DNA of 64,000 bases from Candidatus Promineifilum breve (GTDB taxonomy: Bacteria; Chloroflexota; Anaerolineae; Promineifilales; Promineifilaceae), in assembly GCF_900066015.1 (NCBI RefSeq), contig NZ_LN890655.1, positions 1,900,726-1,964,725 on the forward strand. The letters are read 5' to 3'. The position numbers and the translations under genes were made by a program. Positions 34,023-54,181 of the stretch are shown here, piece by piece. Numbering within the stretch: position 1 is the first letter of the stretch; each line of letters begins with the position of its first letter. The notes below the pieces were generated by a model, which was given only the letters and a program-made list of their open reading frames with translations, was not told the DNA's origin and searched no databases.

Positions 34023-34130
34023 CCACAGATTACACAGATTTCACAGATTTTATGCCTCTAGAAACCGAGTTTCTTCCGAGAAACTCGGTTTCTAAGAGAA
34101 AAGAATCTGTGAAATCTGTGTAATCTGTGG
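34023..34130. repeat. Nested repeat: CACAGATTT arms around an AGAAACCGAGTTT palindrome
   Basis: Perfect 27-nt outer arms (34023-34049 and 34104-34130) of CACAGATTN nonamers enclose a complete second palindrome at 34059-34094. Together they fill almost the whole mdh-mce gap. Confidence 0.93.
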
Positions 34131-41079: not shown

Positions 41080-41985
41080 TCAGCGGTCGTTTAGCTCGCC
41101 CAAATCGAATTCCGCGTGAAGATTCTCCGGCGTGATACCGGCCAGCAGTTCCTCAAGCTTATACTCAGCCTTTGTCACCTCATCTTCTCCTTTTACTAGC
41201 TCCAATAGCGCCCCTAAAGCTTCCCTGGGCGCGGGCTGTAACGCAATGCCCAACGTGCCCGCGATCGCCATCTGCGCCTCCATCTTGTCACCAAGGCTGA
41301 CGAGCACGTCCCTTACCTCTTCCAGCGACGGACATACTGACCATGAAAGGTTAAGACCACGATGGTACACGTATTCCCGGCCATTTAGCGAGCATTCGAC
41401 GTACCTGACCAGCGGCCACAACTCATCGAGGCGACAGCGGGCGAAGCCCAGGTCGCCGCGGACGAGATACTTGGCGACCACGGCGCTCATCATCCAGAAG
41501 AAAGCGACTTGTTCGGCTACCTGGACGGCGAAACGCCCTGGTTCCGGCGGCGCGAGCGGCTGCCTGCGGGGTATGGGAACACGCTCGAACAGGAGCAGCG
41601 AAGTGTCCGGCCGTTGGGCTTGGGAACTTGGGACAAGAATCCAGTCGACAATGTGCGCCGACCGGTACAGGATAGACGTAAATGTCCCGCCCGGCGGTGC
41701 GTTGTGGTTGTTTTCATGCACATTGACCGGCTCGCCAAACTGACTGAACAGCGCCAGGCGTTCATCCGCCGGCCGCGCCGTGACCATCTCCTCTCGTCGG
41801 CACAGCGTCTGGCTATGGGCATCGACGATCGCCACGCTGAGATCGATGTCACTAACGGCGTCGGACTCACCCCGCGCATCGCTGCCAAGCAACCAGGCGG
41901 CGACGACACGTTCATCTTGGAACAACCCTTGGGTAATGGTTGTCAGAAGCATCTCTCGACTCTTTTGAAAAGCTTTCAGATTCAT
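41080..41985 (-). CDS. Nucleotidyltransferase-fold protein, possible drug-modifying enzyme
   Basis: 301 residues from ATG 41985, with GGGGAG 5 nt upstream; an ATG 18 bp earlier is less well placed. The polymerase-beta-like nucleotidyltransferase signature [20 protein letters not shown] gives GS and the catalytic DxD (SDIDLSV). The C-terminal half is helical with [17 protein letters not shown], as in aminoglycoside/lincosamide adenylyltransferases. It overlaps the stop of the ABC exporter subunit by 4 bp, so drug modification plus export in one operon is a reasonable inference, but the substrate is not known. Confidence 0.8.
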
Positions 41986-43835
41986 GCAATCTCCCCATGC
42001 CAAATCCGCTGCATCTCCGGCGAAGACGCCAGCAATTCATCCAGCGTCCCCTGCGCGGCGACGCGGCCGTTCTCCATGACGATAATGTGATCGGCGCGAC
42101 GCAGGGCCGGGCGGCGGTGGCTGACCACCAGGCAAGTCGGCCGCGCCGCGCCGGCCTCGTCCACCAGTCGTTCCCACAGCAGTTGCTCCGTCTCCACGTC
42201 GAGGGCGCTGGACAGGTCGTCGAAGACCAGCAGTTCGGCGTCGCGCACCAACATGCGGGCCGCCGCCGCCCGCTGCACCTGGCCGCCGGACAGGCGCACG
42301 CCGCGCGGCCCGACAAGCGTCTCCAGCCCGGCCTCCAGCGTGGCGATGTCCGGCGCCAGCACGGCCGCCCGTAGCGCCTCGCCCAGGTGGTCGTCGGGCA
42401 GGCCCAGCAGGATGTTGTCGCGCAACGTCTCGCTGAACAGGCGCGGCACTTGCGGCGTGTAGGCCGCGCGCGGCGGCGTGAAGTGGCTGGCCGGATCGAC
42501 CACCGGCGTGCCGTTCCAGCACATCCGGCCGCCGGATGGCGGCAGCAGCCCCAGCAGCGCCCGCAGCAACGTCGTCTTGCCGCTACCCACCCGGCCGGTG
42601 ATGACGGTGAAAGAGCCGCGCGGCAGCGTGAACGAGACATCGGCGATGCCGGTGGTGGGTGGCGAAGGAGCGTCCCGCTCTTCATTCGTCATTCGTAATT
42701 CGTCATTCGTCATTTCCCCCTGCGCTTCGTGCCGGTACATTAGCCCCTCCACTTCCAACCGCTCCAACCGGTCGGCGGCCGTTTTGCTTGGCAAAGACAG
42801 CGGCGGGACGTTGCCCTTCTCATAGATCGGCCGGTGGGCGACAATGCTCTCCGGTGGCGCGTCGGGGTGCATCTCTTGCAGGCGGTCGAGCACCACCCGC
42901 TGCTGGGCGATCTCCGACATGAAGCTGCCCAGGTTGGCCGGGAAGCTGACGGCGATGGTCAGATAGCTGACGAACAGGGTGAAGTCGCCGATGGTCATGG
43001 CCCCCGATTGCAGCGATTGCCCGGCCAGCAGCACGACCAGGGCGACGGCGATGTCGCCCATACTCTGCCCGGCGGAGAAGGAGAGCGTGACGAAGGTGTT
43101 CTGGCGCACGCCGGCGTGGCGGCGCGCTTCGCTCAGGGTATTGAAGTAACGCAGCACACCACCCTCGGCGTCGGCGATCTTGACCGCCTGCACGCCGCCC
43201 AGGATTTCGCCCAGGAAGCCGGTGACGCGGCTGCCGGCGACGCGGGTGGCCCGGTCGTAGAGCAGGAAGCGCCGCCAGGCAAAGCGGTTGATGAAGAAGA
43301 CGGCCAGCAGCGGCAGGGCAGCCACCAGGGTGATCCACGGGTTGACGCGGGCCATGATGGCGATGGCGAAGACGAAGAAGATGGCCTCGCCGATCTCCTG
43401 CGGCAGCCAGGTGGGGAAGTCGGCGAAGTCGCCCACGTCGCGCTCCAGGCGGTGGATGGCGTCGCCCGACTCGACGGGCATGGGCCGGGCGGCCGGCTTG
43501 GCCAGAATGTTGTGCATGAAGTTGACGCGCATGAGCACGCCGTTGATGCTGCGCACCATCCAGCCGCCCCACTCGTAGCCGACGCCCAAAATGCCCCGGC
43601 TAAGTTCTACAGCGACGAACAGGGCCAACAGGGTGACAATGCCGAAGGTGGCCGGGGCCGCGCCGGTCAGCTCGTCGAAGAAGCGCCGGGTGATGAGGCC
43701 GGGGAGCAGTTCGCTGACGATGAGCACGACGCCGAAGATCATATTGGCGGCGAAGGGCCACGGCCGGTAGCGGATGAGCGCCCACGTGCCGCGCCAGACG
43801 GGAAGCGTGTTGTTGGTAGTTTGTATTGTATTCAT
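41982..43835 (-). CDS. ABC exporter subunit with degenerate catalytic site
   Basis: 617 residues from ATG 43835; the frame is open far upstream but this overlaps the partner gene. Six membrane helices (1-320) precede the nucleotide-binding domain. Walker A GRVGSGKT is at ~414-421, signature LSGGQ at ~515-519, and Walker B LLVFDD at ~535-540, with Asp instead of the catalytic Glu. H-loop VVSHRRP is intact. Residues ~373-390 ([17 protein letters not shown]) come from a CGTCATT-type heptamer repeat inserted in the first beta hairpin. It pairs with the next gene as a heterodimer of the TM287/288 type. Confidence 0.93.
42680..42715. repeat. CGTCATT/CGTAATT heptamers inside an ABC exporter gene
   Basis: Five heptamers encode [11 protein letters not shown]-type residues without breaking the frame. 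Confidence 0.85.
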
Positions 43836-43853
43836 AGTATGTTTTCCTGCCGT

Positions 43854-43930
43854 GCGGGGGAGCGGGGGTGCAGGGGAGCAGGGGAGAAAAACTCTTTCCC
43901 CCCTGCTCCCTTTCTCCCCTGCTCCCCTGC
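43854..43930. repeat. GCAGGGGA-type inverted repeat between exporter subunits
   Basis: Octamer arms at 43854-43888 and 43899-43930 with a short A-rich loop separate the two subunit genes. Confidence 0.85.
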
Positions 43931-43941
43931 ATCTTCGCTCC

Positions 43942-45918
43942 TCATGCCAACACCTCCTCCAGACCCGTCTGGAGCAACCGGTAGAAGCGCGACGCGGGGT
44001 CGGCAGCCAGGGCGGCGCGGGGGCCGTGCTCGATGACCCGGCCGTTTTCCAGAATGAGGATGTCGTCGGCGCGCAGCACCGTGCGCAGGCGGTGGGCGAT
44101 GATGATGCCCGTGCGCCCCTCCAGCAGGCGGTCGATGGCCCGCTCCAGCCGTTGTTCCGTGCCGGGGTCGAGGCGCGACGAGGCTTCATCGAGCACCACC
44201 AGCCGCGGGTCGCGCAGGAAGACGCGGGCCAGGGCCAGCAGTTGCCCCTCCCCGGCCGACAGCCCCTTGCCGCCGCCCTCCAGCACCGTATCCAGTCCGG
44301 CGGGCAGGCCGCGCAACCAGTCGTCCAGGCCGAGGGTCGCCAACGCGGCCAGGATGCGGCCGTCGTCGATGGCCGGCCGATCGGGGTCGTAGTTGTTGAA
44401 CAGGGTCAGGTTGTCGCGCACGGTGGCAGCGAAGAGTTGCACGTCCTGGGTCACCAGCCCGACGTGGCGGCGCAGTTCGCCCAGGGGGACGGTGCGGATG
44501 TCGGCGGAGACGACAGACGACGGACGACGGACGGCGGATGGGGCATTGCTATCCGTTGTCTGTGGGCCGTGGTCCGTCGTCTCGCCGGCTACCAGTCGAA
44601 TCGCGCCCGCGTCCACGTCATAGAGACGAAATAACAGCCGCGTCAGGGTCGTCTTGCCGCTGCCGGTGCGGCCGAGCACGCCCAGCACGCGGCCGGGGGC
44701 GAGGGTGAAGGTGACGTCGTGGAGAACGGTGGGGGTGGCGGGTCGCGGGTCGCGGGTGGCGGGTGGCGCGCCTAGTGGCGTGCCCTCTTCATTCGTAATT
44801 CCTAATTCGTAATTCGTAATTTGCCGGTCCTTATAAGCGAACGATACCCCATCGAAGGCCACGCCCGGCGCGCCCGGCGGCAGGACGGCCGCCGCGCCGG
44901 ACGCATCGACTACCTCCGGCCGCAAATCGAAAAACTCGCGGGTGCGGTTGACGCTCGCCAGGGCGCGCTGGATGCCGGCCAGTTCGCGGCGAATGGAATC
45001 GAGCGGCGACTCCAGCAAGCCGACGTAGAAGACCAGCAGGAAGACCGTGCCGATGGTCATCGTCCCGGCGCGATAGGCCAGGGCGGCGATGCCCATCGTG
45101 GCCGCCACCGCCACGGCGAAGAGCACCCAACTGGTGGAGCTGATCGCCGTGCCGAGCGTGTGGGTGCGGGTGCGCAGCGTGGCGTAGCTATTCAGCAGCG
45201 GGTAGAGGCGCTGCATGACGTAGCCCGCGCCGCCGTTGGGCAGCACGTCTTCGGTGCCGGTCACGTGCTCCTCCAGGAAGCCAAGCAGTTCGGCCGAAGC
45301 CTGGCTGATACGGATGTAGAGGCGCACCATGCGCTGCTGGATGACGCGAAAGAGGGTCAGCATCAGCAGCGCATAGACCAGGGCCACCAGGCCGACGCGC
45401 CACTCCTCCACGAACAGCAGCACGAGGATGCCGGCCACCAGCAGGCCGTTGCCGATGAGGCTGACGACGATCTCCGAAAAGTACTCGGCCAACTGGCCCA
45501 CGTCGCTATCGATGCGCTCGATGAGTTCACCGGGGGTGCGCAGCTTGTGGAAGCCCATGTCGAGACGCAGCACGTGGGCCGTCAGGTCGCCGCGCAGGGC
45601 GTTGGTCGTGGCCCAGCCCAGGTCTTCGGTCAGGTAGACGGTGATGAGATAGAGGATCTTCTGGGCCAGCACGGCGGCAAAGAACAGCCCGGCGATCAGG
45701 TAGAGACGGTTCGCTGAACCGTCTCCTCCGCCTGAACCGTCTATGGCCGCGCCCCCGCCGGACACGGTATCGACAAAGCGGCCGAGCAGTTGCGGCCCCA
45801 GGAGTTGCAGGCCAATGCCGGCCAGCAGCAGGACGACCAGCAGCGCCACGCGACCGCGATAGGGCCGCAGATAGTGGCGCAGCATGGCGATGGGTTGAGT
45901 TGGGATCGATTGATTCAT
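43942..45918 (-). CDS. ABC exporter subunit with canonical Walker B
   Basis: 658 residues, longer than the usual ~580-600. Six membrane helices precede the ATPase domain ([22 protein letters not shown] at the start, cited as [17 protein letters not shown]). The A-loop Tyr is in FAYKD, Walker A is GRTGSGKTT, the signature is altered (GLSAGEGQ instead of LSGGQ) and Walker [14 protein letters not shown] keeps the Glu. Two loops (residues ~366-396 and ~446-471) are made of heptamer repeats. With the partner it forms one working and one degenerate ATP site. First structural gene after the long leader. Confidence 0.94.
44507..44582. repeat. GGACGAC-type heptamers inside the ABC exporter gene
   Basis: GACGACGGACGACGGACGG and its partial complement CCGTGGTCCGTCGTC flank a short spacer and encode residues ~446-471. 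Single arms of the same family lie upstream at 45951-45990. Confidence 0.85.
44733..44823. repeat. GGCGGGT and GAATTAC heptamers side by side inside the ABC exporter gene
   Basis: GGCGGGT-type units (44733-44770) and ATTCGTA/ATTCCTA units (44786-44823) both lie in the open frame and encode the loop [15 protein letters not shown] plus [13 protein letters not shown]. Confidence 0.85.
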
Positions 45919-54107: not shown

Positions 54108-54181
54108 ACCACAGATTACACAGATTTCACAGATTGAAGAGCATGGTTCTGTTAATCTGTGAAATCTGTGTAATCTGTGGT
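54108..54181. repeat. CACAGATTT-type inverted repeat between atpA and atpG
   Basis: Three CACAGATTN nonamers at 54108-54136 face AATCTGTG units at 54154-54181 around a 17-nt loop; it ends about 10 bp from the atpA stop. Confidence 0.92.

Follow-up and report, generated by a model that had tools for sequence, protein, structure and literature searches.

Why are two neighbouring transporter genes interrupted, in frame and at the same loop of both proteins, by short tandem repeats of a kind that otherwise fills the junctions between genes? We addressed this question in the window, a 64,000-nucleotide stretch of the genome of the filamentous Chloroflexota bacterium Candidatus Promineifilum breve (a 5.03 Mb assembly of three contigs, completeness 99.96%), in which an earlier note had placed heptamer repeats within both genes.

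The exporter genes and their inserts

Each of the two proteins, called here subunits A and B, contains an ABC_membrane and an ABC_tran domain, and TmrAB was the top Foldseek match for the AlphaFold2 model of A, with TM287/288 likewise scoring high. Two adjacent half transporters, both domains in each and a TmrAB-like modelled fold indicate that the pair is a predicted heterodimeric ABC exporter of the TmrAB/TM287-288 type. The two genes also stand side by side in relatives across phyla. The genes and the palindrome between them are as follows.

41982-43835, minus strand: subunit B of the predicted exporter, 617 aa, one insert (open frame, ABC_membrane and ABC_tran)
43852-43930, no strand: intergenic octamer palindrome, AGCAGGGG/CCCCTGCT, between the A and B genes, of the same element class as in the loops (TRF; DNA folding z = -6.4)
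43942-45918, minus strand: subunit A of the predicted heterodimeric exporter, 658 aa, two inserts (open frame, ABC_membrane and ABC_tran, Foldseek)

Upstream of the B start the reading frame continues without a stop through the octamer palindrome and into the gene of subunit A (41982-44189), which a unit that is open in either orientation would lead one to expect, so the translation start of B is uncertain.

TRF detected arrays at 42682-42714 (TCATTCG), 44509-44538 (GACGACG), 44728-44768 (GGTGGCG) and 44791-44821 (ATTCGTA). The exporter genes hold three inserts, all in frame, and their parts are listed below.

42648-42734, minus strand: A-loop (S1-S2) hairpin insert of B, residues ~368-396 (pLDDT ~40)
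~42651-42664, no strand: remnant of a GGTGGCG arm in B, GGTGGTGGGTGGCG, beside the AATTACG/AATGACG half (sequence)
42682-42714, minus strand: AATGACG/AATTACG heptamer arm in B (TRF)
44507-44589, minus strand: second insert of A (loop 2), residues ~444-470, a full ACGACGG heptamer palindrome (TRF, pLDDT ~59, folding)
44725-44838, minus strand: A-loop (S1-S2) hairpin insert of A (loop 1), residues ~361-398 (pLDDT blocks 49-76)
44728-44768, minus strand: GGTGGCG (ACCCGCC-family) heptamer arm of the chimeric A insert (TRF)
44769-44790, no strand: junction or core joining the two half elements of the A insert, ending in CTCTTC, half of a GAAGAGCGCTCTTC-like core
44791-44821, minus strand: AATTACG-family heptamer arm of the A insert, whose coding strand reads NYELGIT and whose reverse would bear a stop (TRF)

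TRF thus placed the arrays where the earlier note had seen them, in frame in both subunits, with no stop or frameshift in either open frame. The insertion site that the note described as common to both proteins was found as well: loop 1 of A and the loop of B both lie in the S1-S2 hairpin, between the strand of the A-loop Tyr and the strand preceding Walker A (flanking strands 352-360 and 399-406 in A, 359-367 and 397-405 in B in the AlphaFold2 models), and loop 2 of A lies between strands 437-443 and 471-473. The models were built from 60-row alignments and had mean pLDDT values of 85 (A) and 87 (B), with low pLDDT restricted to loops and termini; the structure prediction proposed in the note as a check therefore returned the loops of both subunits as low-confidence segments. 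DNA folding identified the element at 44507-44586 as a complete palindrome (z = -5.1). At 44724-44824 the insert joins one half of an AATTACG element to one half of an ACCCGCC element, and no single hairpin was found in this chimera (z = -0.9).

Occurrence of the elements in the genome

Tandem units of 7 bases occur far above chance, and the density of arrays is much higher between genes. In 864 kb of the genome TRF found 102, 58 and 46 arrays of period 7, 8 and 9, whereas an order-2 Markov null of equal size gave 0 of each, and a run comparable at lag 7 or lag 8 was never seen in 1,300 codon shuffles of 26 orthologous genes. A chance origin of the arrays is excluded.

We then counted 425 arms of 7- or 8-base units in 289 elements across 2.064 Mb (41% of the genome), 48 of the arms belonging to the ACCCGCC family. 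The commonest two-armed form was a palindrome consisting of a tandem arm, a short core that is often GAAGAGCGCTCTTC-like, and an inverted tandem arm; such palindromes, built of tandem units and ~57-180 bp long, are dispersed. Halves of differing repeat families share a GAAGAG/CTCTTC core. Since spacers and unit numbers vary from element to element, exact copying of whole elements is not demonstrated.

Seventy elements lay within genes (49 called genes, by a home-made gene caller on which the in-gene counts rest), and their hosts include DNA polymerase III alpha, TrpE, PreP and a Mur ligase. Pfam families were matched by 18 of 20 scanned host proteins, with elements inside the matched domains of PreP (two), TrpE, a PLP decarboxylase, an aminotransferase, an ISP restriction enzyme and DNA polymerase III alpha.

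Several individual loci were also recorded. The DNA polymerase III alpha gene (L200:9153-13331, G000:C1:2189153-2193331; G000 is the window species) carries three separate in-frame 7/8-mer elements, one of them inside the HHH_6 domain. Clusters of large genes at G000:C2:118483-137858 and C1:2044199-2057021 have up to four in-frame elements per gene; the one scanned gene of these clusters, C1:2044199-2046682, matches PMT-type mannosyltransferases, and its product probably spans the membrane several times. An exact 26-base AATTACG array was present in 22 stretches of putative viral contigs (IMG/VR contigs L069-L090).

Reading frame and bias against stops

Because a unit of 7 or 8 bases is coprime with 3, an array of such units encodes the same cyclic peptide whichever frame is read, so the array is open or closed as a whole and only its strand and its net length matter for the frame. 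AATTACG, for example, is translated as NYELRIT in each of the three frames and its complement runs into a stop in each, while AGCAGGGG yields SRGAGEQG in one direction and PLLPCSPA in the other. Nonamer palindromes of the same two-arm design (CACAGATTA/AATCTGTGA, window 34024-34129 and 54110-54179) are not frame-neutral, because 9 is divisible by 3.

The share of arms located in genes followed this rule: 84 of 258 (33%) for units open on both strands, 17 of 114 (15%) for units open on one strand, and 4 of 53 (7.5%) for units open on neither (Fisher p = 2e-6, both-strand-open units against the rest). Arrays in genes whose consensus is closed hold variant units that dodge the stop; subunit B, for instance, has a single AATTACG in a run of AATGACG units and reads NDELRMT, where the consensus would place TGA in frame between NDE and RMT. 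AT-rich arms paired with their own inverse made up 20 of 30 multi-arm elements outside genes and none of 9 inside, and chimeric arm pairs were enriched in genes (13 of 21, against 19 of 94 between genes; p = 3e-4). Elements in genes are therefore biased to stop-free units, orientations and arm pairings. This bias is partly a consequence of looking only at open frames; it gains independent support because the frames that host elements belong to conserved genes, in which orthologues match on either side of the insert.

Empty and filled sites in PreP and Mur ligase

The sites in PreP and in the Mur ligase are empty in most congeners, where the flanking residues are joined and the inserts are missing as a block. 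One congener each carries a differing octamer insert at the same place (G007 at PreP site 2, G005 at the Mur site). The flanks of filled and empty sites were too diverged for a target-site duplication, such as accompanies a MITE, to be read, the nearest relatives compared being only 75-80% identical. The Mur ligase gene (L200:15449-17362, G000:C1:2195449-2197362) also holds an in-frame insert of ~150 bp composed of several REP-like palindromes (GCGGTGGGTTGAAACCCACCGC and others); most congeners are without it, and its relatives elsewhere in the survey are mostly intergenic.

The exporter hairpin in related species

Orthologues from Paenibacillus, Poribacteria, Latescibacterota and most Chloroflexota have a short S1-S2 hairpin; the span between Tyr and Walker A is ~23 residues in A, and the B hairpin reads YRYPETGRGIEG. 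The hairpin is long in every orthologue of the window family that was recovered in one piece across the site, and none of these was empty. The DNA that fills it differs: AATTACG/ACCCGCC in the window species; the octamers AGAAAGGG, AGCAGAGG or AGCAGGGG, or ACCGCCG, in congeners; and the heptamers GGTTATC/ATTACCG, AACAGTG or CCAATCT-type units in other genera of the family. Three element types occupy the B site among the sister species G000, G007 and G002 in the tree of B. The B loop of G009 had no clear repeat, and the loops of G002 A, G006 and G003 A, in which no array was detectable, are probably degenerate. Across the family neither the residues of the loops nor their length or composition are conserved. 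Outside the family, L125 and L152 fill the hairpin in both subunits with heptamers of their own, and long hairpins also occur in L146 and in some cyanobacterial orthologues.

Two repeat types searched across 59 genomes matched the genomes that bear them: AGCAGGGG arrays were confined to G000, G002, G004 and G005, which are same-genus genomes, and TTACCGA arrays to G016, G028 and G030, whose loops carry this repeat (PITD-type). Among the 22 arrays detected in orthologous genes, 17 sit in the hairpin, which is ~5% of the protein; of the remainder, two precede the start, one is in loop 2 and two are at other places. The binomial value for this hotspot (7e-18) treats the orthologues as independent and ignores shared ancestry, and the conservative evidence is the difference among sister species together with the separate lineages L125 and L152. 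Loop 2 of A holds an ACGACGG palindrome in G000 and AATTACG units in G003, and it is absent in G002 and more distant orthologues, where the flanks join as LDGxD.

In both subunits the S1-S2 hairpin is very probably a permissive site. The remaining ABC exporters of the surveyed DNA had short hairpins, bar one long hairpin without detected repeats, so a repeat-filled hairpin is not common to all exporters of the genome. That one exporter, at G000:C1:457222-459213, has a long extension in its S1-S2 hairpin, in which no 7/8-mer array was detected.

With respect to the earlier note, its expectation that close relatives would lack the loop fails for the A-loop hairpin, which was long in every congener and family member recovered; its expectation that the flanks would join directly holds for loop 2 of A in G002 and more distant orthologues, and not for the A-loop hairpin. 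Conserved loops of this kind in repeat-free homologues, which would have spoken against its reading, were not encountered, because the hairpins of relatives mostly hold other repeats and have no conserved residues. Its broader suggestion that repeats enter genes and survive where the protein tolerates a loop is borne out by the short hairpins of distant orthologues, the empty PreP and Mur sites, the in-gene elements of the survey and the low-confidence loops of the models.

Origin of the loops

We consider it very probable that the exporter loops are in-frame copies, mostly decayed or chimeric, of the dispersed palindromic element class. Such elements would have the form of a 7- or 8-base unit repeated n times, a short core that is often GAAGAGCGCTCTTC-like, and the inverted units repeated n times, and they would pile up mainly between genes; those surviving in genes would be stop-free, have a length divisible by 3 and stand at a site of the fold that tolerates a disordered loop. 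Units open on both strands (AGCAGGGG, ACCCGCC) could enter genes as whole palindromes, and units open on one strand (AATTACG) would occur in genes only as halves paired with a compatible half of another family, the half elements probably being exchanged at the shared core. The hairpin would be filled in every family member recovered across the site, and its content repeatedly replaced by other repeats, apparently drawn from each genome's own stock. We infer that the elements are mobile, having been copied from other loci and inserted, not grown in place. The exporter loops are presumably neutral, and the presence of the hairpin loop throughout the family could reflect selection to keep a loop.

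No transposase or other copying factor linked to the elements was found in the surveyed DNA. A RAYT as the mobiliser is not supported, as 7/8-mer arrays did not flank any of the three Y1_Tnp loci read; at one locus flanking repeats were present, REP-like and different in kind from the 7/8-mers. That locus, with a RAYT-like Y1 gene (L331, G000:C2 ~284376-284717), has the tandem REP-like repeats CCGTGGGATGAATCCCACG and GCGGCGGATTTGAATCCGCC.

A rival reading is that the hairpin extension entered once, in the ancestor of the family, and was then overwritten by recombination or template switching with genomic repeats, with no repeated fresh insertion; we place it somewhat short of even. It accounts for the presence of the extension in all family orthologues recovered across the site, for the varying repeat type among sister species, and for the shared GAAGAG/CTCTTC core at which arms of different families could swap, but lineages outside the family (L125, L152, L146) were filled independently, and gain within the genus is seen at PreP and Mur. 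From sequence alone, overwriting and insertion plus deletion would be inseparable at the hairpin. Growth in place by replication slippage on short coding microrepeats (SSRs), with no insertion of dispersed elements, is unlikely: slippage has been proposed for heptamers, which in many genomes are the most frequent class of long SSR (Mrazek 2007, as cited in PMC4679880), whereas whole palindromes with their core recur here at many loci, the two searched repeat families match the genomes bearing them, codon shuffles yield no seeds, and congeners lack the PreP and Mur inserts as whole blocks.

A function for the loops, as a regulatory or tethering segment kept by selection like the regulatory insertion of CFTR, appears quite unlikely to us. 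The S1-S2 position is that of the 32-residue CFTR insertion (PMC7350234), and the loops are shared by the two subunits and by every family member recovered across the site; however, their residues, length and composition are not conserved, their pLDDT is low, and their content is whichever repeat family is at hand. That the inserts are errors of assembly or annotation, or that the genes have decayed, is scarcely credible: repeats commonly cause assembly error, but independent assemblies of many species stay open through inserts that differ in length and type, and conserved motifs are intact on both sides of the inserts.

Beyond the origin of these loops as copies of dispersed palindromes, we tentatively raise a wider reading, which we regard as possible and would not bet on: frame-neutral palindromic elements may form a distinct mobile class, spread by hairpin copying or template switching, which continually rewrites loops of Chloroflexota proteins, essential ones included, and which independently colonised the exporter hairpin in several lineages.

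A loop common to both exporter halves, into which many related species have taken differing elements, serves as a natural trap for repeats of the genome. Such elements offer a natural form of insertion scanning, in which known repeats in many species mark the loops that tolerate ~10-50 extra residues. The rule behind it is simple, since a unit length coprime with 3 allows selfish or simple-sequence DNA to enter genes in any frame. Moreover, filled, empty and re-filled sites in sister species make it testable whether mobile repeats create new protein segments.

Comparison with known systems

In-frame palindromes (in Rickettsia) and heptamer repeats are already known, and their combination as found here was not met in the literature searched. 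Literature coverage was partial; within it we found no description of in-frame palindromic heptamer elements as a class, a weak negative, or of the re-use of one protein loop by repeats across species.

The CFTR regulatory insertion comprises residues 404-435 in the S1-S2 loop of NBD1, a dynamic insert of ~32 residues at the same loop as in subunits A and B (PMC7350234). It is phosphorylated and regulatory, whereas the exporter inserts are repeat-derived and turn over. REP/RAYT systems likewise involve short dispersed palindromes that are mostly extragenic, but REPs are palindromes of 20-40 bp (PMC3733652), in contrast to the tandem-armed elements described here, and the link to a cognate Y1 transposase gene that is typical of REP/RAYT was not seen for our elements at the three Y1_Tnp genes.

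The heptamer LSSRs of Cyanobacteria, Beggiatoaceae and Xanthomonas (PMC4679880, PMC4692102) resemble the Promineifilum repeats in being tandem heptamers, mostly intergenic and sometimes of mixed units, with occasional reverse-oriented, stop-free copies in ORFs. In these accounts heptamer repeats are few and peripheral in ORFs (PMC4679880) or under-represented in coding regions (PMC4692102), whereas the Promineifilum repeats are numerous inside core-protein domains and form two-armed palindromes with a core.

For in-frame palindromic DNA the nearest precedent is the Rickettsia palindromic elements (RPEs; Ogata et al., as summarised in PMC10969869), which are described in that summary as dispersed palindromic DNA standing in frame in unrelated protein genes and encoding a recurring peptide. 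The earlier note had likened its tandem heptamers to RPEs; the likeness stands, although many of the inserts proved to be whole two-armed elements and not simple arrays. In-frame insertion in many unrelated protein genes, a trait of RPEs, is shared by the Promineifilum elements. RPEs are dispersed palindromes of ~100-150 bp; the dispersed two-armed palindromes here span ~57-180 bp and are made of tandem units. The hosts are Chloroflexota here and obligate intracellular bacteria for RPEs. Unlike RPEs, the Promineifilum elements have arms of tandem 7/8-mers of many families, which are frame-neutral by arithmetic, and they form half-element chimeras in genes and turn over repeatedly at one site across species.
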